Source of the DNA: Thermomucor indicae-seudaticae
Taxonomy: Eukaryota; Mucoromycota; Mucoromycetes; Mucorales; Lichtheimiaceae
Assembly (NCBI GenBank): GCA_000787465.1
Contig: JSYX01000058.1
Location: 1 to 30,882, forward strand
DNA length: 30,882 bases
Direction: 5' to 3'
The notes below the pieces were generated by a model. The model did not search any database. It was not told the DNA's origin and was given only the letters and a program-made list of their open reading frames with translations. The position numbers were made by a program, and so were the translations under genes. Shown in pieces: positions 248 through 30,317 of this stretch; the stretch's first letter is position 1, and each line of letters starts with the position of its first letter.

Positions 248-385
248 TAGGGTTCCGAGTATACCGACCGAACCTCATACCGAAAACTTCTACCGCCATC
301 AGTCGGTAGGAAATTTATACCGACCGAATCCTTATACCGAATTTTATACCGAAAATACCGACCGACCCTTTGGTTAGGAGCCCTA
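248..385. mobile_element. short hAT-like TIR insertion, core of TACCGA repeats
   Basis: The left end reads TAGGGTTCC and the right end GGAGCCCTA, so the termini are inverted with one mismatch. The 138-bp interior is a degenerate reiteration of TACCGACCGA / TCGGTA. It shares its termini with the elements at 1084, 1429, 28299 and 29789. No convincing 8-bp target duplication flanks this copy (GTCCTTTC left, TCATCCAA right), so family membership rests on termini and core style alone. It is probably an old, non-autonomous insertion. Confidence 0.55.
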
Positions 386-790
386 TCATCCAATAAAGTC
401 GAAAAATCCATTATCTGAAAGCAAATTTTCATCCAATCGGAACCCAAATTATCTGATATGTGAGAACAATGTTGACCAACCTGAGTGCGTGTAACGAAAG
501 GTAGCATCACTGCTCTAATAGACAGTCCTAAGGTTTTCAAGCCAATGAAGCCTTTCAGTGAAAGCATAGATTATGATGCATATCAGTAGGAAGCCTGCTT
601 ATGAAGCATTTCAGTGTGAAGCAGAGGTTACGAAGCCTAGCTTTAGGCATCAAAGGCTAGGAAACCTTCGTGCGGATTTTGAAGCCTTTTCGAAAGCTTA
701 AAAGTTATTTGTGCCTCTGAGCGGCGGCAGGTTTCCTTTTTTGCCTATGGAGACCTTTCTAGGGTTTGCGTGGCCTATTTAACCTTTCTG
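386..790. repeat. degenerate GAAGCC-rich low-complexity stretch
   Basis: About 527-700 reiterates GAAGCC and TTTCAGTG words. The clearest pair is 546-566 and 602-623, which differ at only a few positions. No terminal inverted repeats or coding potential could be defined. It resembles the word-repeat cores of the neighbouring insertions and may be an eroded one, but that is inference. 386-526 holds nothing recognised. Confidence 0.35.
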
Positions 791-905
791 TAGGGCTCCG
801 AGTTGGGCCGGGGCGCCCCATCGGGCATCGGGCCAAGATTTTGGCCCAGCAACTACGGCCCATCGGGCCAGGCCCACTGAGCCTTTGGGCCGCCCATGGG
901 CCAAG
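791..905. mobile_element. truncated TIR insertion, GGGCC core
   Basis: Begins TAGGGCTCCGAGTTGGGCC and is packed with GGGCC/GGCCC words. A segment of about 30 bp, with the sub-motif CCAAGATTTTGGCCCAGCAA, is shared with the element at 1084-1190. No matching right terminus is visible, so this copy is truncated or rearranged. Confidence 0.45.
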
Positions 906-1083
906 ATGTAAACTACCTGGGAAAAGTTGGTAAAGCAAAGAATGATAACCATCGTGTCATATCGACTTTTGCTCAGCGTCTCTTTAACACCCGTTTGTCT
1001 TATTGTCTTTCTCCCTTTGATTTCATATTCTCTTTCCATTGGATTTGCAGTTAGAATTGGAAGAAACAAATCGACGATGCAGT

Positions 1084-1190
1084 TAAGGCTCCGACTTGGG
1101 CCTGGCCCGTCCGGCATTGGGCCAAGATTCTGGCCCAGCAAATTCAGCCCAATGGGCATCTGGCCCAGGCCCGGCCCATCCGGAGCCCTA
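1084..1190. mobile_element. short hAT-like TIR insertion, GGGCC core
   Basis: Left terminus TAAGGCTCCGA and right terminus CCGGAGCCCTA are near-perfect inverted repeats. The 107-bp core reiterates TGGGCC/GGCCCA. It is a sibling of the 791-905 copy: both carry GGGCCAAGATT followed by TGGCCCAGCAA. The 8-bp flanks (GATGCAGT and GTCGTCAG) do not match, so no target duplication is claimed. Confidence 0.5.
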
Positions 1191-1323
1191 GTCGTCAGCA
1201 TCAGAGACTTCTTAAGCCCACTGATGCCAGATTCTTGCGATATCGGTTCCTTAGCAGCAGCTCCTGGAAAATGCGTTCCAGTGCTTAGGTCCATTTTGGA
1301 AGATTATCACAGGGAATACGAAG

Positions 1324-1841
1324 TAGTGTTCCTCACGGGTCGGGTTACGGGTTTGTTAACGGGTTGGTCGATCAAGTTCGTCTGCATTCGTCGATCAGAC
1401 AGAAATTGCGAAGGAACTGTGTCAGACTTAGGGCTCCGAGTCGGTCGGGTGGGCTCGGTATGGGTAGAAAATGTCGGTATGAAATCAGGACGGTACAAGG
1501 TCGGGTCGGAATGAAAAGTCATACCGACATGGAGTCGGTAGAGATGCCGGTATAAAGTCGGGTCGTTATACCGACGTCGGTATCACGGAGCCCTACTTAC
1601 AATCACGCAGATAGAAACAACGGATCTAAGATAGAGTTATAATATTTTCAACTATGAGCTTTGTAATTGCGAAACTGGGGAAATGCATATGCATGAGGTT
1701 TAACGGGTCATTGCGGGTTAACGGGTTGGGTCGAAAGTTAAACCGGTTTGGCCGGGTTGGGTTTGGTCTCGACCCGAACCCGTTCTTAACGGGTTGGGTA
1801 CGGGTTGGGTCACGGGTTACCTGACCTAATAGGGAACACTA
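1324..1841. mobile_element. hAT-like non-autonomous element, ACCCG core, interrupted
   Basis: Termini TAGTGTTCC and GGAACACTA are inverted. The element is flanked by a perfect 8-bp direct repeat ATACGAAG (1316-1323 and 1842-1849), the target-duplication length of the hAT superfamily. The ends are built of GGGTT/ACCCG words (CGGGTTACGGGT, CGGGTTGGGT). A second, unrelated TIR element (1429-1595) lies inside it, so this one is older. No transposase is encoded. Confidence 0.8.
1429..1595. mobile_element. nested TIR insertion, TCGGTAT core
   Basis: Termini TAGGGCTCCGAG and CACGGAGCCCTA are inverted repeats. The 167-bp interior reiterates TCGGTATG / ATACCGAC on both strands, like the 248-385 copy. 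It sits within the element at 1324-1841. The flanking octamers GTCAGACT and CTTACAAT agree at only half their positions, so the target duplication is eroded or absent. Only ACTTA recurs, overlapping both ends. Confidence 0.6.
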
Positions 1842-1849
1842 ATACGAAG

Positions 1850-2581
1850 AATATCAAGATGGAAAAGGCACTGGTACATTGCCTCGTTTATTCTCGCTAA
1901 CGCCGCAGCCCTCGCTGCACTGGCGGTTCAAGTCCGCAGCGTTGTACTCATGGGATCGTAACTCATGTGCCGAAGCGCGTGGAATGTACGGACTCATCCC
2001 GCAAAGATCGACTTTGGATACAACATTCTTATTCTCGTCGAATGCTCATACAAGACACCAAGCGAACACAACCTTATTACTCCTATTGCCTTTTATAAGG
2101 GGCAATCAATCTTACGATGATATACTGTTCCGATAAAGCACTCAGGCATCGGCAAGGCGGTTTGCGAATTATGACTACCCAGTCTTGGCTGAAACGGAGC
2201 ATGACATATATTGTTTTACCTTTTAATTGTAGAATGCTGCTCTCTTCATTTTCAATTCTTTTTCACTACATCATGTTGGCAATATCAGCCTTTTTCATCG
2301 GCGCGGTAGGCAAACAGGTGGCGACTTTGCACGTATTGAAGGTACAAAGCCTAACAATGCCTGACAGAGAAGTCGCTTACCGTCGCGCGCAGACCCCACT
2401 CCCCTCCTTTGATCTGCAACAGTTGCTTTTTCTTTCTTGGTCCTCTTGCTCTTTTGCTCAAGAAAAAGAAGTCGCCGTAACAAAGACGGTTTGACGATTA
2501 CATAGATTCGCTCTGGTAAGACGTCGATCCATTTTTGGGTTTGATCCGTTACTTATGCAGAGGCAAATGTTTGTGCTACCG
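1850..2581. other. intergenic DNA without recognised gene
   Basis: Two open frames occur on the + strand (1879-2136 and 2117-2494). Neither has a recognisable domain, and neither joins into a spliced model. I see no RNA gene or repeat. The stretch may contain decayed coding sequence. Confidence 0.4.
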
Positions 2582-2767
2582 GGAATGCTTGCTTGCATCA
2601 ACTAAATCAAGTTTTACTGTAGAGTAAGTATGAAAAACAAAACTACTACGCAAACTTTGAATCCTAACAGCGTTAATTTCTTTCTTCTACAGCGCAAACT
2701 CGGTTCCTTAGTTGATGCAAACTAGCATTCCTAGCTAATGCAACTGTTTTTTCAAAATACAGTAAAA
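2582..2767. repeat. two interleaved inverted repeats (MITE-like remnant)
   Basis: GGAATGCTTGCTTGCATCAA at 2582 recurs inverted at 2708-2731 with about three mismatches in 24. A second pair, GTTTTACTGTA near 2611 and TACAGTAAAAC near 2758, is also inverted. TA followed by CAGTAAAACCCC resembles the edge of a TA-inserting Tc1/mariner-type element, but no single element with both ends could be delimited. 2768-3424 shows no gene. Confidence 0.4.
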
Positions 2768-3424
2768 CCCCAGAGGAAGCGGTCCTCAAACGGCGACTCC
2801 GTCAATTTTTGCAACTTTTCAACGGCAAGTTCACTTCATTCATTAATTAATGGTAAAAGAGTTGCTTACGCATTTCGAAGAATTTAGCCTCAATCTCGCT
2901 ACTTTCATGTAGGATCGCTTCAACATTAACAGTCAGATCGAGCACTGTATGCATTGATTGCAGTGATTGCTTGACAACAGGTTGGACTAATGTGTTGCTT
3001 TTGCTTTCTCTAGTGCAGTCCAAATACGTCGGAACGGGTCACGCTGACACCATCAAATAGTAAGGCACTCTCACATTTCTGTGCAGGAGAAAAAGGAATA
3101 CTCAATGCTACTTTATCGTTTTTTTTCTTTTCAAGCGAGTGGTTGACGAACCAACACAGGGACAGTTATGCATCGTACATTGGCCATACGTCCTTACTGT
3201 CATATTTCGCTGTAGCAGAAAATGAATGTAAAGCAAGAGTCAAGTTTAACCTGATGGAGGTTGGTGCCATATATGTATATGACAACTGGAATATATGTAA
3301 GGTTGATACTAATGACATATTTCGTTGCAGAAAATGTTGCAACCTTGCGGTCTTCCGCCTGTTCGGGAAGAACATTAATGGCTGGTACAGCTCGTCAAAT
3401 GGTTCTGTTTGCTTCGAATAATGT

Positions 3425-4121
3425 TTATACTTCTTCTTCTGATGACGATGAAGATGACGATGATTTCTCTTCTTTGTCGGATATAGCCTTGTCCTCCTCT
3501 GTCGAATGACTGGGAAGCTCTTCGATGGTGGGGTTTTCAATGGATGGTTTGCTGCTTGAAGCTGGTATTATAATATCATTTTCGTCTTCGTCATTCTCGT
3601 TGTCGCTCTCAGACGAATCATTGCCATCCTTTTGTTCGAAAACACCGAGACCGAGGTTCTTCATTTGCCCTTTAGTGAGTTCTGTTTTCGCAAAGTAGCC
3701 GATCCAACATTTAGCCATGTTACCATCTCAATATATTGTTCGTTGTCTTCAACATTTTCAATATCGAGCTCTGATGGATCCTTTTCTTTCAGACGTTCGT
3801 TTGCAGCATGTAGCTGAGGTAGAAACGCTTGTACTCTGGAAAGAACTGAAATACTTGTGTTTAATATATTGTTCAGGTGCAATTTTAATTTTTTTCTTCT
3901 CTTACGTTCTGTTGGCGGGGACACTTTAAAGGTTTTTGGTCTCTTTGGCGCTGTCCCGGTGTTAACTTCCTCGCTGTTTTCCGAAAGTAACTTGGCTTGC
4001 AAAAAGTCCAAATTAGTGGAACGATCGTCTGCTGTATTCTCAGTGTCATTTCCGTACCTATAGTCTTTTTCTTTCCTGGAATGTTTAACAGATCTTTCGA
4101 TCGGTCAGGTTGTGAACTCAT
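3425..4121 (-). CDS. NOPCHAP1: NOPCHAP1-like (C12orf45 / DUF4598) nucleolar protein chaperone
   Basis: Four exons on the minus strand: 4121-4058, 3995-3906, 3845-3724 and 3658-3425, giving 169 residues. Introns are 62, 60 and 65 nt. The first has a CACTAAT branch site and GCAAG acceptor, and the middle one would otherwise read through in frame. The family signature is visible: an early SKDLL, then the conserved block SRVQAFLPQLHAANERL, then IENVED, and IEMNLGLGVFEQ across the last junction, followed by a Ser/Glu/Asp-rich acidic tail ending SSSSSSSSEEEV. In animals NOPCHAP1 links NOP58 to the R2TP/HSP90 machinery during box C/D snoRNP assembly. Function here is inferred from family resemblance. 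It is divergent from RRP45. Confidence 0.75.
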
Positions 4122-4740
4122 TTCGCTGCAAAGAAGAAAGATGTCCTATCTGCTGAGTGCGAAATAACGCATTTTCCTCGAGTCTTCAGCAGCAAATGTC
4201 GTTGCCCTTTGAGTTAGCCAAACGTTTGTCTTAGAGCGGCAATGATCCTGTGTGTCGTGTGAAGTGTAAAGCAGTAGTTTGTCGCTTTACCCACTGCTTA
4301 AGAATAGGTTTATACACAGTTTATACACATGAGAATAAACGGTCTATTTGACCCGGTTTCGTAAGCAGAGACCGCTTTTATACGGGCTGACGCTCTGCCA
4401 GTGCCCATAAGGAAGAACGAGTGGATGTTCTGTAAAAGATGCCACGAGCTGATCGCTCCAGAGCAGGATTATAGTCTGCTAAGCGTCGCCACAATATTCA
4501 CATGTTAAAGTGATAAGCATTTGCAAAGTTGCAAAACTTGAATAGAAACAAGCTAATTACTCTTAGCGCAATCGAAAGTATTCGCACTGACATTGCCTTT
4601 ATTAAAGAGCTGCTGTATTGGTAGCTCTTGACTAAGCACCATGCAGGCAAGTGAAATGCCGCCAAATTCAAGCAGCTGGCGTGGCTTGGATTGGCACCCT
4701 CTTCCTGCAGAATCCACCACAGTACACAAATCCAATCGCC
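4122..4740. promoter_or_regulatory. divergent spacer between NOPCHAP1-like and RRP45
   Basis: This 619-bp gap must hold both promoters. A pyrimidine-rich CTTTCTTCTTTGCAG just upstream of the minus-strand start could be a 5'UTR intron acceptor. A small hairpin AAGAGCT (4605-4611) / AGCTCTT (4623-4629) lies about 110 bp before the RRP45 start. I found no clear TATA box or known ribosome-biogenesis motif. Confidence 0.4.
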
Positions 4741-5995
4741 ATGGTCAAAGATCTAGATCCAAGCATCAACGAAAGTCAATTCCTGCTAGCTGCACTTCGA
4801 GAGAAACGGCGCGTTGACGGACGTGGCATTTACGATGTACGATCCATCCAAATAACGTTTGGTGCCGACTATGGCCAGGTACAAGTAGAACTGGGGCGAA
4901 CAAAGTAAGCACCTCTTATAGCCATCTGGCAAGGGAGGCGGTACACCTTTGATTGAAAGCTGCACTCATATGTAACTACGTGCATAGGGTAGCAGCACGA
5001 GTAACAGCCGAAGTGATGCGACCGAGACCAGAAAAACCTACAGAAGGTATGCTCTTTTTCAATGCAGAAATATCGCCCATGGCGAGCCCAACGTTCGAAG
5101 CTGGAAGGTATGTATGCTCAGATACTATTATCATTATTGTTCTTTAAGTATAATAATTGCTATCTTCCTATCGCTAATACTCTGAGTTCATGGTAGTCGA
5201 TCAGAAGAAGAAGTCTTGATTAGTCGAATCATTGAAAAGTCGCTGCGTCGTAGTCGAGCCATTGATACGGAAGGATTGTGTATTGTTGCAGGAGAAAAAG
5301 TAAGCTTTTTATACATACAAGCCAGACCATGTCTCATATTGGAAATGAATGAAAGGTTTGGTCGATACGCGTGGACTTGCATTTCTTGGACCACGACGGC
5401 AACCTGATCGACTGTGCTGGTATCGCAGCCATCACAGCCCTCTTACATTTTCGAAGACCAGACGTCACTGTTGTCGGTGAAGAAGTGACAATAGTACGTA
5501 TTATAGAACGGAATGATCTTGGTATTGACACTGACTTGTGGTTGGCAGCATCCTGTAGACCAGCGCAATCCCGTTCCATTAAGCGTTCATCACATTCCAA
5601 TTTGCGTTACGTTTGCTTTCTTTGACAATGGGTAAATATGCTACTGCTATCTCTATACGCGTTTAATCAACGCCTAATAAATGCATAGTGAACTATTGGT
5701 TGTCGACCCAAACTATCTGGAGGAAAAGGTCAAGGAAGGTGATATGACGATTACAATGAATATCCACAAGGAAATCTGCGCCCTTTCCAAAGCAGGCGGA
5801 ATCCCGCTAGAAATGGATCAAGTCTTACGATGTTCTCAGATTGCTTTAGTGAAAGTCAATGATGCAACTGAATGCATCCAAAAGGCATTGGAGCAGGATA
5901 GGCAAGCAAGGTGAAGAAAAGAAAATTGTTCCGCTAAAGTGGGAAAACTGATCGGTCTTTTCGTTTTCAGGTCGTCAGCTGGAAAGAGTCAGTAA
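4741..5995 (+). CDS. RRP45: exosome complex component RRP45 (EXOSC9)
   Basis: Seven exons: 4741-4904, 4988-5107, 5197-5299, 5356-5493, 5549-5631, 5689-5910 and 5971-5995. They join in frame to 284 residues. The RNase PH fold of the family is clear from EKRRVDGRGIYDVRSIQITFG through GMLFFNAEISPM, IDTEGLCIVAGEKVW, RVDLHFLDHDGNLID, LHFRRPDV and GGIPLEMDQVLRCSQIA. RRP45 is a structural subunit of the hexameric ring of the RNA exosome, which processes and degrades rRNA, snoRNA and mRNA 3' ends in nucleus and cytoplasm. It lacks the long C-terminal extension of the human protein and is near yeast length. The last exon encodes only RSSAGKSQ and a stop; AATAAA follows directly. DBT starts 110 bp downstream on the same strand. 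Confidence 0.93.
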
Positions 5996-6105
5996 ATAAA
6001 AATTTTCCCACGCATAAAGCGCGTACTTGAAAAGAATTTCCTACGATCTTGTTTCATGTTTTTGTTGTCTTTTGCTGCCATTAGTCAGCGCTCAACCGTA
6101 CGTAG

Positions 6106-7803
6106 ATGTCGTCCTACAGACTATTTAATTACCGTCAACTGTCAAGGGTATCCTCCATAACAGCTACGGCTGTCAAACGCTATGCTCGACCATCCACCTT
6201 TCGCACGGTGTGTGTCTGTTGCGTGCACAGGGCACGTTCTCGGGGGGGGGGGAATATCAGTGTTTTTCTGACTATTCAACTGTAGACCGGACCCAAGCCA
6301 TCAGCGAGATCTTCCTGTGCAGCAAAGTGGCTATCAAGACGTTCTTTGGTCATTTCACACTGTTCTATCCGACACTTGCATTCTTCACCACATTGTTTAG
6401 CAGTCAAGCCTTTCTTGTTGGCAGATATCGGTGAAGGTATTACGGAATGTGAAGTGATCCAATGGTAAAGCATAACAATGATAAGAAAAAACAAATGATG
6501 GGCTTACATGGTCGATTTGTTGCAAGGTTCGTCGAGCCTGGCTCAGTTGTGTCTGAGTTCGACAAGATCTGCGAAGTTCAATCGGATAAGGCATCCGTCG
6601 AAATCACTTCTCGGTTTGCCGGCAAGATCAAGACTTTGCACTATAAAGTAAACGAGATTGCGAAGGTTGGTCAACCGTTAGTGGATATTGAAGTGGAGGA
6701 CGACGTGGTAGCTGGGTCTCCTACTGCTGAAAACGACAAACCATCGTCCACTCCTGAACCTGAACAAAAGAAAGTAAAACAAGAACCCACACAGAGTGGA
6801 CGCCCCTTGAAGGATCCGTCTATCTTGAGTCTCGCTACGCCGGCCGTGCGACGCATTGCAAAGGAAAACAATGTCGATATTACTCAAATCAAAGGAACAG
6901 GCAAAGATGGAAGGGTGCTAAAGGAAGATGTGATGGCGTATATCTCCGGTAAGTGTACTACTACAGTGCCCCTTTCTTGCATTGTCTTGGTGCAAGTCAT
7001 TGAATAATGTGCGCCTATTAGGCCGATCGCGACCATCTGAAATTACCACTGCCTCTGTAGTAGAAGAAGAAAAATTAGAGCCGCTGACGCCTATCCAAAA
7101 AGCCATGTTCAAGTCAATGACCAAGTCTCTATCGATTCCTCAGCTGGGATACAAGGACGAAATCGAGCTGAATGCCACGACTCAGTATCGGAATGCTTTA
7201 AACCAGCACATCGCTAATAATGCAGCTCTTTACCCCTTCAAGAAGATGTCCTATATGCCGATCCTGATCAAATGTCTCTCGGTTGCTCTGCTGCGTTACC
7301 CTATTCTGAATGCATCGCTGGTTGTCGGTGACGATCCTGACGACGTGAACTCGATCCGGTTGGCGTATCGCAAATCTCACAATATTGGTATTGCCATGGA
7401 CACTCCTCAAGGTTTGATCGTCCCAAACATAAAGAACGTACAAGACAAATCAATCTTTGACGTGGCCGCTGAGATCCATCGACTCACGGAACTCGGTGCC
7501 AGGAATAGTATCCCCCCAGCCGATTTGCAAGGAGGTACGATTACGGTCTCCAATATCGGCACGCTTGGCGGAACCTATGCCAACCCTGTTATTGTCTCGT
7601 CTGAGCTTGCCATTGTTGCTCTTGGTCGCATGCAGACTTTGCCTCGATTTGACGAAAAAGGCGCAGTGGTCGCTAAGCAAATCCTACCCATCAGTTGGTC
7701 GGCTGATCATCGCGTTATCGACGGCGCAACCATTGCACGCTTCGGCAATTATTGGAAAAGTCTGGTAGAAAATCCCGTACTCCTTGCCAGTGAACTACGC
7801 TAA
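6106..7803 (+). CDS. DBT: dihydrolipoamide branched-chain acyltransferase, E2 of BCKDH, mitochondrial
   Basis: Best model: 6106-6207, 6409-6464, 6527-6948 and 7022-7803, 453 residues. Residues 1-34 are Arg/Ser/Thr-rich with no acidic residue, a typical mitochondrial presequence. A lipoyl domain follows (LADIGEGITECEVIQW, with lipoyl lysine K74 in CEVQSDKAS). Next come a Pro/Lys linker, the E3/E1-binding domain (ATPAVRRIAKENNVDI, about 152-190) and the catalytic domain with SWSADHRVIDG (His423, Asp427). It transfers branched acyl groups from lipoate to CoA in valine, leucine and isoleucine breakdown. FGYKDE-like and SHNIGIAMDTPQGLIVPN segments favour the branched-chain over the pyruvate E2. 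Intron 1 (201 nt with an 11-G run) is longer than the others and its acceptor is the least certain boundary. Confidence 0.9.
6242..6252 (+). repeat. G11 homopolymer in DBT intron 1
   Basis: A run of 11 guanines lies inside the long first intron of DBT. It is likely to be length-polymorphic and a sequencing trouble spot. Confidence 0.85.
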
Positions 7804-9273
7804 TAATAATAGAAGTTTGGACTTTTGGTTATTAAACTTTCAGCCATGTAATGTTCCAGATGGTTACAGAGTACACAGTGGCTACCGCGAGTAATCATGC
7901 CTGTCTTTTGGATCAGCCAGGATTCTTTGTCTGTCTTGCGACCAGGAATATGGCTTGGTCTGCTCTGCGTCCTTGGTCAGGATCTTGCGGGACGGGGTAA
8001 CGTCTTGCAAGTTGCACTGTGAACTTGAAAGAGTGAATCTTGTTGATCAGATGAACCGATGCTTCATATAGCGCTTGGAAAAGTATTCCGATGAAGATGA
8101 TTTGCAGCTTTGAAGGGAGAGAAAAGCGAAGTATACGAACTACAGAGTGATTCCTCTGCTTAGATATCTACCTCGGCTGAAACAGCTCATGTGACATGAT
8201 TCAGCACTTGCAGAAAACCCTGAGAAAAAGATCCATGATAGTTCACTTATGCGTTCTTCATCATATTAACAGAGTCACTGAATATTGTCCATACTTGGTG
8301 CAAACCACCTTCGTCAAGGCTAATTGGGAAATGGATTCAGGCTTTTTCCATAAGCGCAAATCAGAAGGAAAAAACCTAGTAGCATGGTGTATAGTGTCGA
8401 TACCATGGACGGGAAGACACTTGATCGAATCATGTCAGATCTGCCAACGAAATAAACAACATGAATAAAGCTAAAAAGCATACTGTAGTTACGATTAGCT
8501 AAGCGTAACTTATGCTTAGTGGACATGCTATGAGCTAAGAACGCCCGAGGCGACCACTACATGAACTAAACACTTAGTGAAAGCATATCTAGTATGTCAC
8601 TTCTTCACATATTCCTTACTTCCTTCAGGAACAAATAGTGGCAACCTTGCTTTATCTGTCTACATGTGACAACGGCTCTCTTGCTTCCACTGGATAATTT
8701 CCGAGTGTCAAATAACGCGTTTACAATTGTTTACCCAAAGGACACTCGATTATAATCAATTAAGAGATCCGTCGGCTGCAAATGATGGTTTTCAGTAGAT
8801 CCCATATTCATTTAAACTTCTGTTATGACAAAAGGGCGATGTCCAGAAAGTGGAATGTCTATCCGTAACGTAACGCTTTTCGTTGCCATGGCATCCATTT
8901 GCATTCGTGCTTACACTTTCTTTCACGGAAAATGAAGGACGCGATCGTATTCCAAATCAAATTTGACAACACGTTTTTGAGTTCCCAAGTGGACGTTCCT
9001 TTATGCGAGTAGCCACCACTACCTCTGATATCTGCGAAAAATGTCTTTGTTTCTGTTACGTTTTTGTTTTATTCCTGACACATTGGTTTCACTGCCCAAT
9101 TTTTTAAATTCAGGTCTTGGAAAAGAGTTCGATTTTGCCTTTCTCTTTCTCATCCTTGCCGCGCTTCTGGGCAGTGTAAAAAAGAACGAACTACATTTTT
9201 TGATCCCTAATTGATTCGGTGAAGCTTGATATACCCTTCTGCTTTTCCTCCCTCTCGATTTGAATCGGGAGAA
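7804..9273. other. intergenic DNA between DBT and MED25
   Basis: About 1.47 kb with no complete gene. It holds the retroelement-integrase-like relic listed separately. Just after the relic are two overlapping, mutually exclusive small hairpins: AGTTACG 8487-8493 with CGTAACT 8504-8510, and CTAAGC 8499-8504 with GCTTAG 8514-8519. The last few hundred bases presumably carry the MED25 promoter; no motif stands out. Confidence 0.45.
8196..8468 (+). pseudogene. possible retroelement integrase zinc-finger relic
   Basis: A 90-codon open frame ends with IPWTGRHLIESCQICQRNK. This resembles the end of the HHCC zinc-binding domain of Ty3/gypsy-type integrases (pattern W-P/T-x(n)-SCxxCQRxK). The histidine half is not in a recognisable arrangement, and no reverse transcriptase, RNase H, LTR or catalytic core is nearby. 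If real it is a small decayed fragment; a chance resemblance is possible. Confidence 0.35.
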
Positions 9274-12700: not shown

Positions 12701-12886
12701 ATCTTCTAATAAACATCGCGTTACAGTTATATCTCCCAAATTTGGAAAATGGGCAGACAAACATCCTCTCTCTTTAATCATCGTTTTTTGTAGGTTTCGA
12801 GCGAATCAGCGGAAGACGTTCAGTCATCTCATTTTGAACGATGCTACTTGTGCCTCCCACGGCATAACGGCCTCATCTTATATAGT
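12701..12886. terminator. convergent 3' region of MED25 and POL1
   Basis: The two genes converge with 186 bp between stop codons. AATAAA lies within 15 bp after the MED25 stop on the + strand. The two 3'UTRs must abut or overlap, so natural antisense transcripts are possible. Confidence 0.5.
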
Positions 12887-18457: not shown

Positions 18458-18581
18458 CGAAAGTATATGATATGAAAGAAGAAAAAGCAAAAGAACTTCG
18501 ACGCGCTTGCCCAAATTTCCCGCACTGTAAATTTTCGGTTGTACGCGAAAAGGTCGCGCGTCCACTACGCGACGGGTGAGA
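18458..18581. promoter_or_regulatory. bidirectional POL1-ASNSD1 promoter with E2F- and MBF-type sites
   Basis: The two start codons are 124 bp apart. Seen directly: TTTCCCGC at 18516-18523 (canonical E2F/DP site), ACGCGC at 18501-18506, ACGCGAAAA at 18543-18551 (MCB/SCB-like), GCGCGT at 18556-18561 (ACGCGC on the other strand) and ACGCGA at 18567-18572. ACGCG is the known core of the fungal MBF factor that drives G1/S genes, including DNA polymerase alpha in yeasts. Use of the sites here is inference. Confidence 0.65.
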
Positions 18582-20972: not shown

Positions 20973-21427
20973 GACCGGGGCGACCTGCTATTAGATCTTG
21001 TACATACAGTAAGTTGATTAATGTTACGAATCCTTCATAAAATACGGTGTCATGACTAGTACATGTATCAAAAGGTGATTTAACACATTGAGCAAATGAC
21101 GGTTCTCTTTTACGAAGAAAGCTTGCCGTCAGTATAATGAACATAAGCTTACTGTCAGTTAATGAATAAATCCATGATTCCTTTATGCAAAGGCCGCTGG
21201 TCACATTCAACAGGATACTCTTAAATCCATGCCTTGTATCGCGCACAGGTCATCCTATGTTGTCTGCAACGGCACCATGAACAGAAGACTTAGATACAGT
21301 ACATATCCATATACCGCTTTTCTCTCTAGCACGCGGCATTAAAAAGCTTGGGGGATCGAAAAAAGTCCGCTTTTCCTTTCTGTCTTCTGCGTTCGCGATC
21401 GATCGATCGATTAAACGTAAACGAATC
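20973..21427. promoter_or_regulatory. ASNSD1-PPIH spacer with CGAT tandem repeat
   Basis: A 455-bp intergenic stretch. A perfect CGAT x4 tandem (21396-21411) ends 16 bp before the PPIH start codon, so it lies in the 5' leader or core promoter. No TATA box or other named motif was recognised. Confidence 0.5.
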
Positions 21428-22408
21428 ATGAGCAATCCAGTACAGGAACGACCAATTGTTTTCATGGACATTTCCATTGGCGACGTACCAGTGGGTCGCT
21501 TAAAGATGGAGCTTTACTCGGATATTGTTCCAAAGACTGCAGAAAATTTCAGGTAAGTATAAAATGTCTAAAGAGCGCGTACGGGATTGGATGGATTGCT
21601 TGACTGACTAAATGATCATCTTTTTGTTGACAGACAACTATGCACAGGTGAATTCAAGTGCGTATAGATAGACAACACTTTTGCAAGAACCGCTATTAGG
21701 GATGTAACTCACGCGATTGTTATGCTGTATACAGGAGAAATGGTGTTCCGCAAGGTTACAAAAACAGCCTGTTCCACAGGTAACGAAACGAACCTAGTCA
21801 GTTCCTGCTAAAAATATGTTGATCTTATGACCGTTTACTGGTAGAGTTATCAAGGACTTTATGGTGCAAGGTGGTGATTTTGTCAAGGTAAATGTGTTGT
21901 ATTGTTTACCGATGCACAGCTTTTAATCGTAACATCTATTTGCATAGGGCGACGGCACAGGGTCTATGAGCATTTACGGCGAAAAATTCGAAGACGAAAA
22001 CTTTATAGCGAAGCATTCTCAAGCAGGCCTACTCTCAATGGTAAATAGAAGTCCACGTAATAGCATACAAGTAGATTCGGTAGTGAACACATTTTTTGCT
22101 TGCTTTTCTATTAGGCAAACTCGGGACCAAACACCAACGGATGCCAGTTCTTTATCACTTGCGACAAGTGCGAATTCTTGGATGGCAAACACGTTGTCTT
22201 CGGTCACCTCGTTGATGGATTGCTTACCCTGCGCAAAATCGGTATGGAAAAGGCGCATTTTCGCAAAGCCTTATTGTTACCAGTAGCGTAGACTGATGTT
22301 ACCTTATTTCATGCGTTGTAGAAAACGTAGCGACGGGGCAAAACAATCGCCCTAAATTACCGGTTCGCATTACAGGTAATCCGCGTTTATTCCTGCATTA
22401 TAGAATGA
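21428..22408 (+). CDS. PPIH: peptidyl-prolyl cis-trans isomerase H (U4/U6 snRNP cyclophilin)
   Basis: Exons: 21428-21552, 21634-21657, 21735-21779, 21845-21887, 21948-22040, 22115-22241, 22322-22375 and 22404-22408, 171 residues. It is a single cyclophilin domain: [31 protein letters not shown] (catalytic Arg65, Phe70, Gln73), [16 protein letters not shown] and [23 protein letters not shown]. It matches the PPIH subfamily (short N-terminus, [13 protein letters not shown] insert, [15 protein letters not shown]), which binds PRP4/PRP3 of the U4/U6-U5 tri-snRNP. The tryptophan that contacts cyclosporin in CypA and PPIH is Phe131 here (CEFLDGKH). The final five-base coding exon (Glu, stop) is uncertain. 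A read-through of the last donor would instead add about 17 unrelated residues. Confidence 0.92.
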
Positions 22409-23237
22409 TGAATGCAGTGCTGATATAATGGTGTCCAGAATGTGGGCAGATGTAGATAGACAGACTCCAGCAGCCCGATTGAATTAAGAAGCAGTTGTGG
22501 CAATAAAACAATTGTACATTTACCCTGTAGCACCAATCACTTCCTAACTTCCGCATATCGAATACTTCTGAATATATGCACCAGACTGCTGCATAAGCTA
22601 GCATGTTTTACCATCATTTGGCCTATGGTTGTCGTGGATTGATCTTAGATACACATATATAGAGTATTCAAGGACAAGAAGCGCTCTGACGAGGCCTTTT
22701 CGACACGGGAACAGCAGAGATGAACATGGATCTATCGCCAAAATGAGCACATCCTGTGCAATATTTTTGTCTCGTTTTGGTGGGAAGGATCAAGTACTTG
22801 TACAAGGTGAGAGTGCCGCTCGTCAATCTCATAGGTGGCAAAACAGGGAGTTCTGGTCTAGCCTCTTAATATCCTCCAAAAAAAGCGTTCTTTGTCACCC
22901 TCTTGCCGGGAGCGTCTGGCTGTGACAAGGCTGCTGATTCTCTTCATGCCATTTCCTTACGTCTTCCACACGCCACGGACCAGTGAGAAGCGAATTCGTC
23001 TTGCGGGTGTAGTACCCAGCGCTAGTGTTTCTTAGGGAGCCTGAGCTCGATAAGGATTTTCGGGCTCGGCTCGGTAATCTCGATAATGCTCACTGTATAA
23101 AGGAAGTTTCAGCGAAGTTCCAGCAGTGGAAACGTCACGTTCCGCTGTTACTCTCTTGCATTTTCCGCGAATTTTCGAAGTATAGGGCTGATGTATGCGC
23201 AACCAGCAGACCTCTAAGACGCGCTTGAGATGCCGTG
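22409..23237. other. intergenic DNA, no recognised gene
   Basis: The start of the transposon-rich region. A 98-codon open frame at 22629-22925 has no recognisable motif and reads like decayed sequence in several frames. I see no repeat or RNA gene. Confidence 0.4.
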
Positions 23238-24419
23238 CACTGCAAAAAATTAGACATTCCTCCCAAAATTCCACGGGCGGAACTTGTTGTACCACGTGGG
23301 CGTTCCGCACACGTTCTTCTTAACTTCCCACGGGAGGAACGTGAGCATCATAGCTGCTCAGTGAGTCAGCCAGGAATACTTTTAGTTACATAGACTCCCT
23401 ATACTCCTACATATTAACGACTATTACCAATATGCGCAAATACGCTCATCGGCACCCGAATTGCAAGTACGAAGGAAAACACTTTATTCTGCTATGTAAA
23501 GTTTCATGCTGTTTGCATATTGTATGACTAATAATAAATCAGACAACATCTTGATTTGAGCATAGTGCAACCGGAGTTACCAAAATAAAAAGGCAGTCCA
23601 CACGCTCACTGCACCGTGCACTTACATAATATGAAATCTCATGTGTAAATCAACATCAACGTGTAGGGAACATAGAATTCCTGCAGGGAGGAACGTGGGC
23701 GGAACGTGTAGGGAATAGGCGTCGCAATCTGACGCGCGGGTCGACCCGGGTCGATTTTTCTGACCCGTCGATCCGTCTATGAGCCGCCTATGGGAAAGGA
23801 CTACCTCTCCTATTAGCACAACTTGAGAGTCGACATCTCTGAATGGCAATGAGCAGATGCATAATACGACACTAACTGTCCATTCCAACTGGTGTCGAAA
23901 CAAAACGGTAGGAGATACATGGCATAAAGGCAGAATACACAGCAATTTCTGCTTCCAGACGTCCCAAATATTGAAACGGCGACAGCATTGACAACTTTTT
24001 CCACGGACCAAATTTTGAAAGAGGTGTTGGGAGAGCACTGAGATCTTTTCCCGTGGACTAAATTTTGAGACGGGATTGATCAGAAAAAAGTCTCGAATTT
24101 TGGGGCCATATTGAGATGTCACATTTTTGCGATGTCCGTAGCGGCAAGCAGCGCCACTGCAAAACATCCATTGAATTAGTGCTTTCTCTTATCATTTCAT
24201 CTCATCACAAAACATGAACATCCTGTAAAGCACTTGAAACTCTCTGTTTCTTACAGTATGCACCATGAAATTCCGCCAATTGTGGCATTGGCATCTAATC
24301 GCCTATTGCAATCTCATAAAGAGCTGGCCCGTCTGACCAGACCCGACCCGTCAAATTGCGACCCCTAGTAGGGAACATACAATTACTGCCGGGAGGAACG
24401 TCTAATTTTTTTTGCAGTG
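23238..24419. mobile_element. CACTA-like non-autonomous element, interrupted by a hAT-like element
   Basis: Long terminal inverted repeats: CACTGCAAAAAATTAGAC, then RTTCCTCCC, at the left; the same with two extra A at the right (about 28 bp, one substitution). CACTG/CACTA ends are typical of the CACTA (EnSpm) superfamily. The 3-bp flanks are GTG and GTA, so the expected 3-bp duplication is imperfect. Inside, a unit of about 45 bp beginning GTGTAGGGAACATA is repeated in tandem (from 23661 and 23706). GGAACGTG / GGGAGGAAC words recur throughout. Without the nested 652-bp element it is about 520 bp and encodes no transposase. Confidence 0.7.
23716..24367. mobile_element. hAT-like non-autonomous element nested in the CACTA-like element
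   Basis: Left terminus TAGGCGTCGCAATCTGACG; right terminus inverted, TAGGGGTCGCAATTTGACG (17 of 19 identical). It is flanked by a perfect 8-bp target duplication GTAGGGAA (23708-23715 and 24368-24375). Subterminal regions reiterate GACCCG/CGGGTC, including the palindrome GGGTCGACCC. No transposase was recognised in the 652 bp. It interrupts the second copy of the host element's tandem unit, so it is the younger insertion. Confidence 0.85.
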
Positions 24420-24775
24420 GTAGTGCTGCTGTGCAGAGGGAAACTGTTGGGATGTTGCCAGCCAAAATGTCGAGAGACGCAACTTGTGGAATATCTCTGC
24501 TATTTTGAGGTATTACATGTGCCCAGGGTATGTCCGATTCAGTATGCCGTACACAGATTGCACGCGGTATGTGTCTGCGTCCGACACATACTCTCGTACA
24601 GTCTTCCTCCGATTTTTCACCCCCGGTTTTTTTCCGTCCTCGAATCTTTCAGCTTTCATTGAAGATCAATCTGCTTTTTTCATTTTTCCGTCAGGAAAAT
24701 GACCCGTAAAAAATCGGGGTTAACGTATATATAGGCTTTATTGCTTTTTATTTAAGGCAATTTGCACCCTTTATT

Positions 24776-24991
24776 TTATTTTTTCGACGTGCCAGTTTGA
24801 GCATTTTCTTCATACTTGCGTTTGAACATTTTCGATATCGACGTCTCGTTTGGTGCTTTTGGGATATTGAATTCTGTCTTTGAGCACTAGACTAGTTGTA
24901 CGTCTGTCAAATGGGGCTCCTTCACTGTTCGCTGGACCGATAATTCTCGCTGACCCTCGTTGCACTTAACATATTTCTTTGGCGTAGTCAT
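24776..24991 (-). CDS. possible small spliced gene inside the pogo-like element
   Basis: An ATG at 24991 opens MTTPKKYVKCNEGQRELSVQ and continues to 24902 without a stop. Another frame downstream reads EFNIPKAPNETSISKMFKRK and ends GTSKK and stop at 24776. A TATATAAATAAA box (25042-25053, minus strand) lies about 50 bp upstream of the ATG. Joining the two parts needs an intron whose donor I cannot fix; candidates give 39-84 nt. I do not recognise the roughly 55-70 residue product. It may be a leftover of the element's own protein. Confidence 0.3.
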
Positions 24992-25041
24992 TTCAATGAA
25001 GTGTTCAAAGAAAGCAGTTCACGTCAATGGAACAAAGCAGC

Positions 25042-25053
25042 TTTATTTATATA
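25042..25053 (-). promoter_or_regulatory. TATA-box-like sequence for the small element gene
   Basis: TATATAAATAAA on the minus strand, about 50 bp upstream of the ATG at 24991. The motif is seen directly; promoter use is inferred. Confidence 0.35.
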
Positions 25054-25524
25054 TTTGACCAATTGCTCAAAAGAACTTCGGCGTACTTTCCATATTATTC
25101 CTAGCGATCTTTGCGGCAGATAGCAGCAATATACTAGAAGTGCTTTTGTTATCTGGAAGGCGCTGGAATGCCACTTATTGCGATCGCCGCTTAAATGTTC
25201 TTCCAGGTTCCTGATTCTCGATTTTTTTCAGCCCTCAGATTTTTCTGCTCTGGCCGAGAAAAATCCGCGGCGGAAAAAAGCGGGGGATGACTGTATGCGG
25301 TACGGATATGACACATTTTCCAAGTTGAAGGGACATAGAAGACATCAACAGATAACTCGTGCCACTGATTAAAACTGTGCTGTCAGGAAACGCATGGGTG
25401 GCCATTCTTGCGTAAGTTCATACCTGACCGAGGACTTTCTTCTCTTGCTCAGCTGGACTCTCAGTTCATTTAGAATACTCTGGATCGCCGACAGATATGC
25501 CGAGCTTGAAAATTCGATTTAATG

Positions 25525-26556
25525 ATAGAGATCTGGCCAAAAAGAACCATTCCTTACTTTTTGCTTCCTGCTGCTTCACACAGAGCTTCCAGCGACATTC
25601 TGACTTGATAAACTATAAGAATACACTTCCGGAAACACGATTCTGTCTTTTTCTGATGGTCTTCACTTATTATTTTTGATTGATGAAGGAACAAAAAGGT
25701 GGTAGAAAAATGGCCAGGATTACGGAGCTTGAAACTTAAGTTTTATTCTAGATCGTCCATGTCCATGGCGTCCACTGCATTTGCATCTTCGCTTTCACTC
25801 TCTGAAATTTCGTCGTCGCCGGCTGATCCTTGCTCTAAATCCTGAAGATACTATCTACGGTACTCTTGATTCTCTTTGAGGGACTTGTTCCATAAGAGAT
25901 CAGCTGGATCGGCTTAAGTTCAGCGAATAGCTGAAATCTAGGTCGCGAAGATATCCACAAAGAGTCCTGCCAGCAACAACGAAACCCAAGTTGAAAGCTC
26001 CATTCCGATGATACGTGAGTTTAGGGTCACGCCGTTTTGGTTGACTTTCATAATAACTTTCGCCAACGGCTGTGACGAACTTTGGGTTGAGCTGCTTTTT
26101 CTGACGCTCAATCTTCTTCAACTGATCGCGCATTTTGTCCTCATTGCTGCAACGTATTGCCTCCTGCGCGACCGTCTCAGATAAGCCGGTAGCCTCAGCA
26201 AGGCGCTTGCGCTTCGAGAATCTCCCTCGACTTTGGTCTCACGTTATGAGCCTCCAAGTACCGGTGAACCCTGACGACCATCTTGAATTCATTTTCAGTC
26301 AGAGGAGCTCCATCACGTATAAATGGGTCGCGAGTCATAATAGAGAGTTAATATTTTACAAGAAGGCGTATTAAAGAGAGAGGAACGTTTTTCACTTAAA
26401 AGCCAGAAGGCACTTTCTGATAAGAATAACGAGTTGTCTTAAGAGCCAAAAACAACCGTCAAATTGCGGAATGGATCTTTTTGACCAGATCTCTATTTCG
26501 ATTTAGTGATCACTTTTCGGATGAGCACCCCCGACCGTTAAATCGAGCGCCTACTG
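25525..26556. mobile_element. decayed TA-inserting transposon with subterminal inverted repeats
   Basis: A 29-bp sequence, ATAGAGATCTGG-Y-CAAAAAG-followed by CCATTCC, occurs at 25525-25553 and inverted at 26468-26496 (27 of 29 identical). The right terminus reads inward CAGTAGGCGCTCGATTTAAC next to TA (26557-26558), like a Tc1/mariner or pogo end. A matching left terminus was not found, so the left end is lost or diverged. It encloses a broken transposase-like reading frame. Confidence 0.5.
25743..26318 (-). pseudogene. broken transposase-like gene with helix-turn-helix relic
   Basis: Reading the minus strand across frame changes gives LTENEFKMVVRVHRYLEAHN, then KRKRLAEATGLSETVAQEAI, then a basic/charged stretch. 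After a further break there is an acidic C-terminus ending VDAMDMDDLE and stop at 25743. The RLAEATGLSETV segment resembles the helix-turn-helix of IS630/Tc1-type transposases. At least two frame shifts and internal stops mark it as dead. No DDE catalytic motif was seen. Confidence 0.45.
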
Positions 26557-27106
26557 TAACTGGTTTTCTCCACATGCAATAGGAACAAAGACGGAAGACA
26601 TTCAAATTGCCCATTTTACTGACTAGGCTTCTGTTTGGGCCACACAAGGACGGAAATTCTTTCTGCACAGTTAGAGAAGACACGCATCAAAGCCGCTAAA
26701 ATGGTTAATAAGTACAAGGACAATCTGCAGCAACGCTCAGATGGTAAAGCTAGTACCATTTCCGTTCTTTATCACGCTCGGATTATGCACCCATGGGCAA
26801 CGCAAACAACTCAGAGTTCCCAAAGTAATTTCAATCTGTTATTTGCGGTGCGATGTGATCTAGGCTAAGATCATAACTTCTGTTATGAGCTTAACTTTTA
26901 TGTCTGTTCTCATCCCAGTTGACAACAGCGACGATGCCTGTGATTAGAAGTCTTCAGAGCAGTATAAATAGAGTAGATATGTTACTTTAATAACCGATAC
27001 ATTTTGTCTCATCTGCTCTTTGGGTTTTATCCTTACTTTTTATCGCGATATCTGATAACTGTCATATAATCATGTCTTCCGAAAATTTTTTCAAAGAAAA
27101 ACACGG
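26557..27106. other. intergenic DNA with decayed coding remnant
   Basis: An open frame at 26635-26868 (QLEKTRIKAAKMVNKYKDNL) is basic and helical, vaguely like the C-terminal part of retroelement integrases, but too short to assign. A hairpin lies at 26866-26892: TAAGATCATAAC / GTTATGAGCTTA, 11 of 12 paired, 4-nt loop. Confidence 0.35.
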
Positions 27107-27108
27107 TA

Positions 27109-28219
27109 CAGTGTGACCCCGCCTAATGAAACGGCTCAATTCCTAGAAATTTGTTGCAATAGCCGAGGGTTGCAATGGAGTGAAGTTGCCGCTGTTTTAG
27201 TTTCCGATTTTGTATCCATCAACTATTCCACAAGCCCATTCTTTATTTGAGCATCGTCGAAGAAGCAGACATGTCCAGATATCCTCGGACCTCATTTTCC
27301 ATGAAGGCATTCATATAGTCAGATGCTGATAACCATTTCCTAAAACGATATGCTATTAACAATAATAGAACAACAATGAAACCCAAAGGAAAGACCATCC
27401 CGCCATGCAAACAAATCTTGCTTATAGTTGTACTCGAAGGTTCATCTGAGCCCCCTATTTGAGAATTGAAAGACCGCAAATTTCTTTTCATCTCGAACTT
27501 TGCCCTTTTCTGACCACATCCTTCTTTCCACTTTTTTCTCTTTGCCAGAGGACATTACGTGTTCACTTTCAGTTACAGAGTCTCGCAACTTCGTCACAAA
27601 CTTCCACACAACATTTGTACGCTAGCGGTGCGAATGGCGCAACTTGATGCTGCTGAATTGCAAAAAGCGAGATCATGTTGACAGACATTGTGATGAATCG
27701 TTTTGCCATTCCGGCAACATACGTTCGCAGCAGCACCACAAATATGTTTTATACCTATGGATGCTCTTGGCGAAAAATCTTCGTGCTTCTTCTCGGGAGG
27801 AAAGGCGTCCATTGTCCGGGTGGTCAGATTTGCGCAGATGAACAATTACGTCATGGCGTTGCGCCTCTCCGAAATGAAATTTTGGGTATGTGGGTCACAT
27901 GTGTACTTAGGAAGGACTGGCTCTAGACTAATGCTGGTCAGGTGGGCGGAAGACTGGACACAAGGGAAAGTGGACGGTCTTTAATTTGTTAATTGAATAT
28001 GGTAGATAAGGGCTGTCGCTGTTTTCGGCCAGTATGAAAGCAGTAGAACGATAAGTATGGCGTGTACCTCTGAAACGGCGTACGGAGCTATTCCAACATG
28101 GAGCCAACGGTGTTGCAAATTGCGGAAGGCTGGGAAGTTGCATTGGCTTTATACATTTCCAGGGATTCCTGAAACTCGGTTGCAATAGGCCGGGTGTTGC
28201 AATAGGTGGGGTACCACTG
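27109..28219. mobile_element. pogo/Tc1-mariner-like element next to the orphan gene
   Basis: Left terminus CAGTGTGACCCCGCCTAATG; right terminus inverted, CAGTGGTACCCCACCTATTG (about 75% identical over 24 bp). It is flanked by TA at 27107-27108 and 28220-28221. Subterminal TTGCAATAG-type motifs recur near both ends. No DDE transposase is recognised in the 1111 bp. The interior open frames include a minus-strand one (27491-27243) with a clear hydrophobic segment, MVFPLGFIVVLLLLIAYRF, which could be a membrane-spanning exon of unknown origin. The right end stops 46 bp before the ATG of the gene at 28267. Confidence 0.6.
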
Positions 28220-28266
28220 TAAGGCCGTTAGTTGTGCAACTTGTGTACTGCAGATGGACTAAAGAA

Positions 28267-29536
28267 ATGGCAGAGCTTGAAGAATACGTTGTAGGCACTA
28301 GGGCTGCGGGATTTCCGACCGACCGACTTGGCCAAGTCGGAACCCTAGTAGGCACAGCTGAACCCATGCTATCAGACTTCGTCCAGGCTTTTCAGTCCAA
28401 GATTGTAGAATGGACAACCATATACCAGGACTGGACAGGAGTGGCCTCCTAATGGGGTAGAAATTTCAAGGCAGTATTAGAGGAATTGCGACCAGATATC
28501 AAGCCAAAGCATGTTCCCAATGTCTACCGACATTACCCAAATGCTAATACTTCACGTATTTTCGTCATAGCCTTATGTGCCCAAAGTTGGTTTGGGATGG
28601 TATTTTCGAGACTGTAAGTTGATTAGTTCCACAGCTTTGATGCTTTTCATTGGCGTCAACTCTTGGACGCACAAAGATTGTGTCCGATCGAACCTACGCC
28701 ACGAAGAGCCAGCAGGTTTTAGCAGCTTATGCAACGCGCAGTGCCGATACGTTGATCTCGCTTGCTACGACATCTACAGACGAATAGCATTCCTGTAGAT
28801 CCTGCAAGCCCGGCGTCAACTGCTTCAAGCCTTGATGAGCACCCTCAGAGGAGGATTACAAGAGATCACGGGCGTCTTGAGCCATGTGAGGCTGTTGAGG
28901 ACCAGGTCGACAAGGTACGCAAGTAGAAATAATCCTAGTTCCACTATAGCATGCTAAATCATTCATAGTGGATCGAAAACGGCCGAGATATGAGCGCGTT
29001 CCTTTTTGGCTACAGGAACTCGTCAATTGCCGAAAACAAAAAGACATACAAATGCCTTTCCTCGTGCCGTGCTATGTAAGACCATCTGCTTTTCTGTCCT
29101 TGCCATTGTTCTCATAATTGACGGGACATCGTGTATAGATCGCTGATGCACGTTTATATATTTCCGCTGAACGTGGTCAACAGCGTTGCGGGCTTCCAGA
29201 ACGAGTTACGACTGGACCGTAACGACTCCTTCCCAGGTCTGCGGTCGCAGGCGGCCGACTGGTGCCAGGAAATCTACTCGGTAAAGATAATATGTCACAT
29301 TTTTTATGGTTACGTATACCAGGTTTTTTAACGCCACTTTATAGGCCCTGATGGCAGAGGACTTCAACTGCTGGCAGTTTGAGACCCTCCTTGCGAATTT
29401 CCGTCTTGAAGCGATCCGATGCCAGGACATCGAACTCTTGAGCATCGCAAGCATTATACAAGATATAGGACGTCCCCAGCATTTCGAAAACAGTGAAAGG
29501 ATGACCGAAGACACGTTTACAGAGGAACCTGGTTAA
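28267..29536 (+). CDS. unrecognised eight-exon gene reshaped by transposons
   Basis: Exons: 28267-28404, 28481-28512, 28571-28613, 28677-28715, 28780-28914, 28969-29075, 29139-29280 and 29345-29536. All are in phase, 275 residues. The seven introns are 54-76 nt with GT-AG ends, and intron 2 has a GCTAATAC branch site. Segments include LMCPKLVWDGIFET, DQVDKWIENGRDMSAFLFGY, NELRLDRNDSFPGLRSQAAD and LMAEDFNCWQFETLLANFRL. I recognise no domain, signal peptide or membrane segment and assign no function. Exon 1 contains a 49-bp hAT-like insertion (28299-28347) that with its duplication adds exactly 19 codons and no stop. The final codons TEEPG and the stop lie in the left terminus of a pogo-like element; without it the frame would end SMAIC. 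First-exon boundaries are the least certain, and the gene could be a long-lived pseudogene with intact splice sites. Confidence 0.55.
28299..28347. mobile_element. 49-bp hAT-like mini-insertion in an exon
   Basis: Termini TAGGGCTGCGG and AACCCTA are inverted. The core is CCGACCGACCGAC then TTGGCCAAGTCGG. A perfect 8-bp target duplication GTAGGCAC flanks it (28291-28298 and 28348-28355). It is among the shortest credible TIR insertions imaginable and cannot encode anything itself. It keeps the surrounding reading frame open. Confidence 0.8.
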
Positions 29537-30317
29537 TTTCAAGGCCAGTATTTTCGTTGAGACCTTGAAATTAACGGAGGCTGAAAATTACCGGGGTCCG
29601 TGCTTTGGATTCGAATGTGCAACTTCTGGCTGGTGCATTTGCCACATTGTTGGAACAATGACCTATTCCGCTTTTCTAAGCATGTTATGATAACAGACTG
29701 ATACTGCTGCGCTGCATCCGTTGAGTCTGTACGATGATACAATCAGAATAAAAACCATAGCGTTTCGGGAACCATCACAAAGCAGCTCTAGGGCTCTTAA
29801 CTGGGACTGGTCGTCCCGGGTACCGTCCCATTTATCGTCCCGTCGCGTCCCGCCCCATTAAGAGCCCTAAGCAGCTCTATAGGTGCAACGGGATAAGCAT
29901 TGGGAAAGAGGTTTTTTTCTGAAGTCGAGCTATATATGTTCCCTGTACAATCCGTAATGATGAAAATTGTCTCCGATTAATATAGCCTCTAGTACTTGTC
30001 ATTGGTAACAGTGAGAAAGCTCCTTTATCTGACCAGGAGAAAGTCTTTGACTATACATAGACTCAGATCAAGACGTCCAACAAAGTAAGACTTGCTGACG
30101 AACTTTTTGTCTGAACAAGAAATTTTTAGTTCTGCTTCTCAATCGGATTTCATTGGCTCATGCACCCCGGTTAAGGTTTTCAACCCCTTCAAGTCCCTTG
30201 AAAGTGAAATATAGAGGGAATGAAAATTCGCACTATGTTTTCTGGATATTTTGCAGAAAAACGTGAAAATAACGAGGGTCGAAAGCTGACGAGGGTGAAA
30301 TTAACGGGGTTCCTCTG
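29520..30317. mobile_element. pogo/Tc1-mariner-like element, interrupted by a hAT-like mini-insertion
   Basis: Left terminus CAGAGGAACCTGGTTAATTTC; right terminus inverted, CAGAGGAACCCCGTTAATTTC. It is flanked by TA (29518-29519 and 30318-30319). Near the right end three imperfect tandem motifs (GAAAATAACGAGGGT, CGAAAGCTGACGAGGGT, GAAATTAACGGGGT) look like subterminal transposase-binding repeats, and related motifs occur near the left end. No transposase is encoded. Length is 798 bp, including the 81-bp insertion at 29789. It inserted at the 3' end of the gene at 28267-29536. Confidence 0.7.
29789..29869. mobile_element. 81-bp hAT-like mini-insertion, GTCCC core
   Basis: Termini TAGGGCTCTTAA and TTAAGAGCCCTA are perfect inverted repeats. 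A perfect 8-bp target duplication AGCAGCTC flanks it (29781-29788 and 29870-29877). The core reiterates GTCCCG (TCGTCCCGGGTACCGTCCC). It is nested in the pogo-like element and therefore younger. Confidence 0.88.

Follow-up and report, generated by a model that had tools for sequence, protein, structure and literature searches.

Nonautonomous hAT-type elements of a Mucorales-like fungus very probably form several families, each with its own putative transposase-docking word

hAT transposons have the target consensus nTnnnnAn, and their terminal inverted repeats carry A at position 2 and G at position 5. Among nonautonomous members, Mar of Drosophila has 8-bp duplications, and SIMPLEHAT of Arabidopsis has a simple-repeat-like interior, the likeness of which to the elements described here is by description only. 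The BED domain of Hermes is described as binding short subterminal repeats, which most hAT elements carry near their ends according to the same account (PMC10368747), and a six-base subterminal repeat is described for Kat1 of Kluyveromyces (PMC4763223). In this study, a window of 30,882 nucleotides, which is all of contig JSYX01000058.1 (C54) in a Thermomucor indicae-seudaticae genome of 24.77 Mb and 735 contigs, was analysed for small insertions with hAT-like inverted termini and interiors or arms built from degenerate copies of a short word. These elements very probably belong to several families of nonautonomous hAT miniature inverted-repeat transposable elements (MITEs), each having its own subterminal word, a putative docking site of the transposase, with words gained or lost after insertion.

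As in Hermes, a short repeated motif lies near the ends of a hAT element, binding being putative here; unlike Hermes, which is reported to need ~220 bp at each end, some whole elements of this genome are far shorter (PMC10368747). Kat1, as described, is likewise fungal and carries its six-base subterminal repeat close to the hAT ends, but differs from the present MITE families in being a domesticated transposase at one locus (PMC4763223). Mar is described as a nonautonomous hAT element too, its copies being thought to be internal-deletion products of a transposase-bearing one, whereas many families with word-repeat arms coexist here and some elements are of only 43–57 bp (PMC3517528). No paper on hAT MITEs in fungi was found in the open-access literature searched, which is no claim of absence from print.

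The features assigned in the window are listed below; in what follows, C-numbers denote contigs of the same genome and L-numbers sequence stretches taken from it.

90–385, plus strand: left-truncated copy of a TACCGA-word hAT MITE, with a shared unique core at 90–247 and the right arm at 248–385; no target duplication.
791–1190, plus strand: GGGCC-word hAT MITE of 400 bp, with a left word arm at 791 to ~905, a unique core to ~1083 and a right word arm at 1084–1190; no target duplication.
1316–1323, no strand assigned: left target duplication ATACGAAG, with its right copy at 1842–1849.
1324–1841, plus strand: ACCCG-word hAT MITE with ends TAGTGTTCC/GGAACACTA, the perfect 8-bp duplication ATACGAAG and a nested element at 1429–1595.
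1429–1595, plus strand: nested CCGAC-word element of 167 bp, which three further copies of the outer element carry at the corresponding site.
23716–24367, plus strand: hAT MITE of 652 bp with GTCGA/ACCCG word arms at its ends, a unique homologous core and the duplication GTAGGGAA at 23708–23715 and 24368–24375.
28299–28347, no strand assigned: CCGAC-word element of 49 bp with the duplication GTAGGCAC at 28291–28298 and 28348–28355, collinear with relatives of 57, 82, 111 and 118 bp.
29789–29869, no strand assigned: GTCCC-word element of 81 bp with the duplication AGCAGCTC at 29781–29788 and 29870–29877.

The insertions are real and of the hAT type, because they have 8-bp duplications biased to T at position 2 and A at position 7 as well as TAGGG/TAGTG ends, and hAT transposase domains are encoded in the same genome; the hAT-like nature proposed by the initial annotation of the window was borne out on these grounds. 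That annotation had named seven insertions with inverted termini, and perfect 8-bp duplications accompany such termini in four of them (1324–1841, 23716–24367, 28299–28347 and 29789–29869), the repeats being ATACGAAG, GTAGGGAA, GTAGGCAC and AGCAGCTC as it had read them, but no 8-bp duplication was found for 248–385, 1084–1190 or 1429–1595. All TAG[GT][GC] pairs 40–1500 bp apart in the sequence examined were compared over their 11-bp ends, with a duplication scored at ≤1 mismatch. Pairs with 0–3 mismatches in 11 bp carried a duplication in 17 of 124 cases (0.05 expected), a proportion that is not a genome rate, as much DNA was taken around known ends and the 0–3 split was chosen post hoc, while pairs with 4–7 mismatches carried one in 0 of 1294. 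In an open search for exact 8-bp duplications with 9-bp inverted ends (≤1 mismatch), 10 matches were obtained in 221 kb, three of them being window elements, compared with 0, 2 and 0 in three shuffles. Against this, the loose end TAGKGYTCNNA taken alone, with 1 mismatch allowed, was not enriched in the window (25 occurrences vs. a shuffle mean of 19.5, with ≥25 in 11 of 100 shuffles). Among 13 perfect duplications, A occupied position 7 in 12 (p 1.5e-6) and T position 2 in nine (p 0.002); of three perfect duplications found later, GTATAAAG fits this bias, and GATCGAGC and GATCCATG do not. The TAGGG/TAGTG ends match the hAT end consensus, partly by selection, as the end finder demanded TAG[GT][GC]; the left end at 23716 reads TAGGC.

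The interiors had been described as non-homologous, which holds between the different window elements but not within families across the genome. Whole-genome DNA queries required ≥60 bases, hence five window queries were used, without the 49-bp 28299–28347, and all five were matched on other contigs: 248–385 on 7, 1084–1190 on 6, 1429–1841 on 11, 23716–24367 on 7 and 29789–29869 on 9, these counts being lower bounds and some of the matches spanning only part of the query. Homology of interiors of the kind seen in MITE families was thus found, with coding capacity judged by size and by the open frames of the window only. The words are specific to families, and the cores are family-specific rather than copy-specific.

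In the TACCGA family, a blastn of window 1–420 against its relatives gave identities of 88% over 90–341 with C588, 84% over 90–352 with C608 and 94.5% over 90–271 with C444. These longer copies, of 723, 708 and 1065 bp, respectively, have a TAGGGCTCCGAG end followed by a word arm, then the unique core and then the other arm, the window copy being without the left part; the duplication is perfect in C444 (TGCTTAAC) and has two mismatches in C608 and three in C588. Similarly, 791–1190 aligned end to end with a 432-bp element on C40, the flanks of which (GCATTCGC/GCGTTCTC) differ by 2 mismatches. By these alignments to relatives, 248–385 and 1084–1190 are the right arms of ~90–385 and 791–1190, not the separate insertions for which they had been taken. 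Both right arms open with an internal end-like sequence (window 248–258 and 1083–1094), and the boundaries drawn at 248 and 1084, together with the absent duplications, are thereby explained. Arms bounded by internal end-like sequence were also observed at L030 240–329, L046 245–327 and L039 476–565, the arm mimicking a small complete element; such arms may record the capture of DNA between two small elements.

Copies of 1324–1841 were found at C282, C283 and C644, and its 3′ part is common with the hAT transposase locus on C166. For 23716–24367, the relatives C505 (85% over 6–651) and C572 (84% over 1–652) share with it the unique sequence that lies between the ends, to which the words are confined; long cores are unique DNA common to copies. 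Among the small elements, 28299–28347 and its 57-bp relative have 24 of 25 aligned core bases equal, and relatives of the GTCCC element with perfect duplications were found on C373 (122 bp) and C560 (54 bp). The two ends of the GTCCC family can be told apart, and matches to them numbered 23, on 17 contigs, vs. 0 for the reversed pattern. In L062 (C505), read on the reverse strand from 53, the left end was seen to be chimeric, a GAGTC-type TAGGGTTCACCACGAGTCGA being joined to the own GTCGCAATC of the 23716–24367 family; families may trade ends and words with one another.

Each core had further been regarded as a degenerate word repeat, which applies to many elements or arms, but not to 23716–24367 nor to several interiors. 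In the shuffle test, word enrichment was strong in many elements or arms, not in all, and interiors taken alone were not significant for C560 (p 0.69), C515 (0.33), C605 (0.12), C271 (0.06) and L038 33–159 (1.0); random genome stretches reached p 0.01 in 0.5–5%. When 10 cores were tested, six had p >0.1, and the other four (0.000–0.044) were those of the 1324–1841 family, in which the nested word element lies within the core. Tandem Repeats Finder detected two short arrays only (323–353 and 1789–1818) inside the elements initially named, and the words are therefore degenerate. A further element, of 257 bp, was observed at L016 986–1242. Its ends are TAGGGATCTAAA, it has long inverted arms and ATCCG words, and it is flanked by the perfect duplication ATACTTAC; L052 opens with an ATCCG end resembling it, next to a hAT transposase domain.

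Length change could be observed directly at one site. The nested element at 1429–1595 measures 167, 182, 102 and 73 bp in the four copies of the outer element, the flanks being nearly the same, and by eye the copies differ by word-rich stretches gained or lost, with the ends kept. Collinear length change was also found among the small CCGAC (size series 118, 111, 82, 57 and 49 bp), GTCCC and TACCGA elements, in a collinearity comparison of 22 hand-picked elements that included three of the four nested copies and left out C644. The change in core length is accounted for by post-insertion deletion or slippage between words. The slippage-type change suggested by the initial annotation is retained to that extent, but gap repair, end joining and replication slippage are indistinguishable here as its route.

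The hAT transposase domain PF05699 gave 6 matches in the genome, all above the cut-off, and the downstream DNA was examined at five of these loci (C652, C549, C680, C664 and C166; the sixth is C28). Words were counted per 150-bp stretch against 1254 background windows (19 stretches, four of them chosen for holding such elements), and since the words were picked after reading the ends, the counts are descriptive and not a blind test. The arrays differ between loci: 12 GAGTC were found downstream at C652 (background mean 0.20, maximum 5), 5 and 6 TTACG at C549 and C680 (background maximum 3), and C664 has two stretches with 3 and 4 AGATC, counts reached by 12 and 3 background windows. The GAGTC word and a similar end are common to C652 and to the tiny elements described below, and a first-exon piece of C664 matched zf-BED just below the cut-off (19.3 vs. 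20.6 bits). A 184-residue frame of the C664 transposase, which may include intron letters, had no solved-structure relative, with 41 protein candidates, none of them scored. On C166, the homology to the 3′ part of 1324–1841 amounts to 78% over query bases 167–325 (query 1429–1841), and was also seen by direct alignment. An element of 2554 bp with TCAGATC-rich arms and a 7/8 duplication was noticed at C449:3453–6006 (L042, L049 and L043); as a candidate autonomous element it was rejected, as only short open frames are present.

Most likely, the words serve the transposase as docking sites specific to each family, with binding being what we infer, because word arrays lie behind transposase genes and the Hermes BED domain provides a precedent. 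In such a mechanism, copies of the short word of each family, direct and inverted, would adjoin the terminal inverted repeat, and the hAT transposase would hold the words through a BED zinc finger. Long copies would consist of arm, unique core and arm; in short copies the core would have been lost and the arms would meet, with the entire element resembling a word repeat. After insertion, units would be added to or removed from the word-built arms through slippage or between-word deletion, with the ends preserved.

Several observations weigh against this docking-word interpretation. The smallest pairs, including those with 28299–28347, aligned no better than k=4 word-preserving shuffles, because little except words remains in them. 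Target duplications are lacking in three of the four copies of the 1324–1841 family and in C505 and C572 of the 23716–24367 family. At the transposase loci, the C166 end is word-poor (2 GGGTT in 150 bp, as many as in 27 of 1254 background windows), and its link to 1324–1841 is therefore one of homology only; the C664 end, at 1.3 kb from the transposase gene, could stem from an insertion of its own; stops are present in two of the six PF05699 matches, C652 and C166; and 5′ ends were not recognised by eye at C166, C549 and C664. As to the autonomous hAT transposase with the same ends for which the initial annotation had called, C166 shares the 3′ part of the ACCCG family and C652 the GAGTC word and a similar end, but an autonomous element complete with its two ends and a target duplication was not encountered. 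Moreover, one 11-bp end, TAGGGCTCCGA, occurs at 38 sites genome-wide vs. 5 for the reversed pattern, 36 of the 38 lying in the sequence examined (those on C695 and C712 being left out); by word classes assigned by eye it is common to several word families, which is not predicted by one transposase per word alone.

The sharing of TAGGGCTCCGA among word families is what would be expected if the word arrays were ordinary simple-sequence expansions without a role in transposition and one transposase recognising the tips moved all families, and the expansion and contraction of the arrays agrees with this as well. We nevertheless consider it unlikely, as long copies carry their words in the arms beside the tips, with 6 of 10 cores at p >0.1, and as word arrays lie downstream of transposase genes, where binding sites belong. 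The same 11-bp end with several different words, the chimeric left end of C505 and the variation of core length between constant ends at one site could also be accommodated by the model of the initial annotation, in which inheritance is confined to the ends and every core is a new, copy-specific product of templated or slipped synthesis, formed in the course of transposition or gap repair. However, homologous copies exist for all five searched window queries, unique cores are common to copies at 84–85%, and the small elements are collinear; the copies form families with homologous interiors, the very finding that the annotation had named as refuting its proposal. As a general rule the model is therefore refuted, and we regard it as highly improbable.

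Besides the window elements, much smaller ones are present in the genome. A genome-wide scan for TAGGGNTC and its complement with 20–50 bases between them, which allowed nothing >66 bp, returned 14 elements of 43–65 bp, and 0 with the reversed pattern. Duplications (≤1 mismatch) flank 7 of the 14, compared with 0 of 182 crossed left/right flank pairs. They are perfect in five elements (C27, 53 bp; C160, 43 bp; C271, 57 bp; C376, 43 bp; C560, 54 bp), while the seven elements lacking a duplication by this measure show 2, 2, 2, 3, 6, 6 and 6 mismatches. Although the pattern named ends only, seven GAGTC elements at seven sites were among those returned. These are of 43 bp (three copies) or 53–55 bp (four copies), with none near 48, and align over their whole length, differing mainly in word number, with the left junction the same in six of the seven. 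They contain 4, 3, 4, 3, 3, 5 and 2 exact GAGTC/GACTC, and when GACTT and GAACTC were counted as words too, each had three or five, never four. Three of them have different perfect duplications and one a duplication with 1 mismatch. The ends that hAT elements need are given as ~220 bp each for Hermes, ≥200 for Ac, 200 and 150 for Tol2 and ~100 for Tag1 (PMC10368747), so that both the tiny elements and the 49-bp window element are very small for hAT.

That the tiny elements (43–57 bp) transposed at their present size, instead of shrinking after insertion, is possible but doubtful. It agrees with the whole-length alignment of the GAGTC elements at seven sites, their common left junction and their differing duplications. 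On the other hand, characterised hAT elements are reported to need ~100–220 bp of each end (PMC10368747), the word arrays offer no unique deletion junction, by which repeated shrinking to a similar size could be distinguished from amplification, and C344, C418 and C621 have 2, 6 and 6 duplication mismatches; the scan, moreover, fixed the ends and admitted no element >66 bp, making longer GAGTC copies invisible, and the sample is small. From the GAGTC lengths, which fall into two sizes one helical turn or two words apart, it may be conjectured, as a rather speculative proposal, that some families are hAT transposons stripped down to a pair of tips plus a few docking words, 43–55 bp long and mobile at that size; a hAT transposase would then require nothing beyond the tips and the words, with a separate word for the zinc finger of each transposase. 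Elements of 43–57 bp with perfect duplications mean either that shrinkage in place goes this far or that the lower size limit assumed for hAT elements is much too high.

Within one genome, several hAT families thus resemble each other at the tips and differ in their words, and the transposase genes, too, are followed by different words. This provides a natural series for testing how a BED zinc finger chooses short words and what end length a hAT element needs for movement.

The named best matches of one window protein were to Mucorales fungi, with Apophysomyces at 76% and other matches at up to 85%, and on that basis the host is a Mucorales-like fungus. The analysis covered a single strain. 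The window looks element-rich, the comparison contig starts being a non-random sample; 150 kb taken irrespective of these elements contained one such element. Further genes of the window resemble those for DNA polymerase alpha and an E2 acyltransferase. On C652 (L052), a possible retrotransposon with an endonuclease region was noticed by eye from ~630, just beyond the GAGTC end. In the window itself, a diverged 28-bp tandem repeat of 3.2 copies lies at 545–636, with no obvious relation to the word arms.

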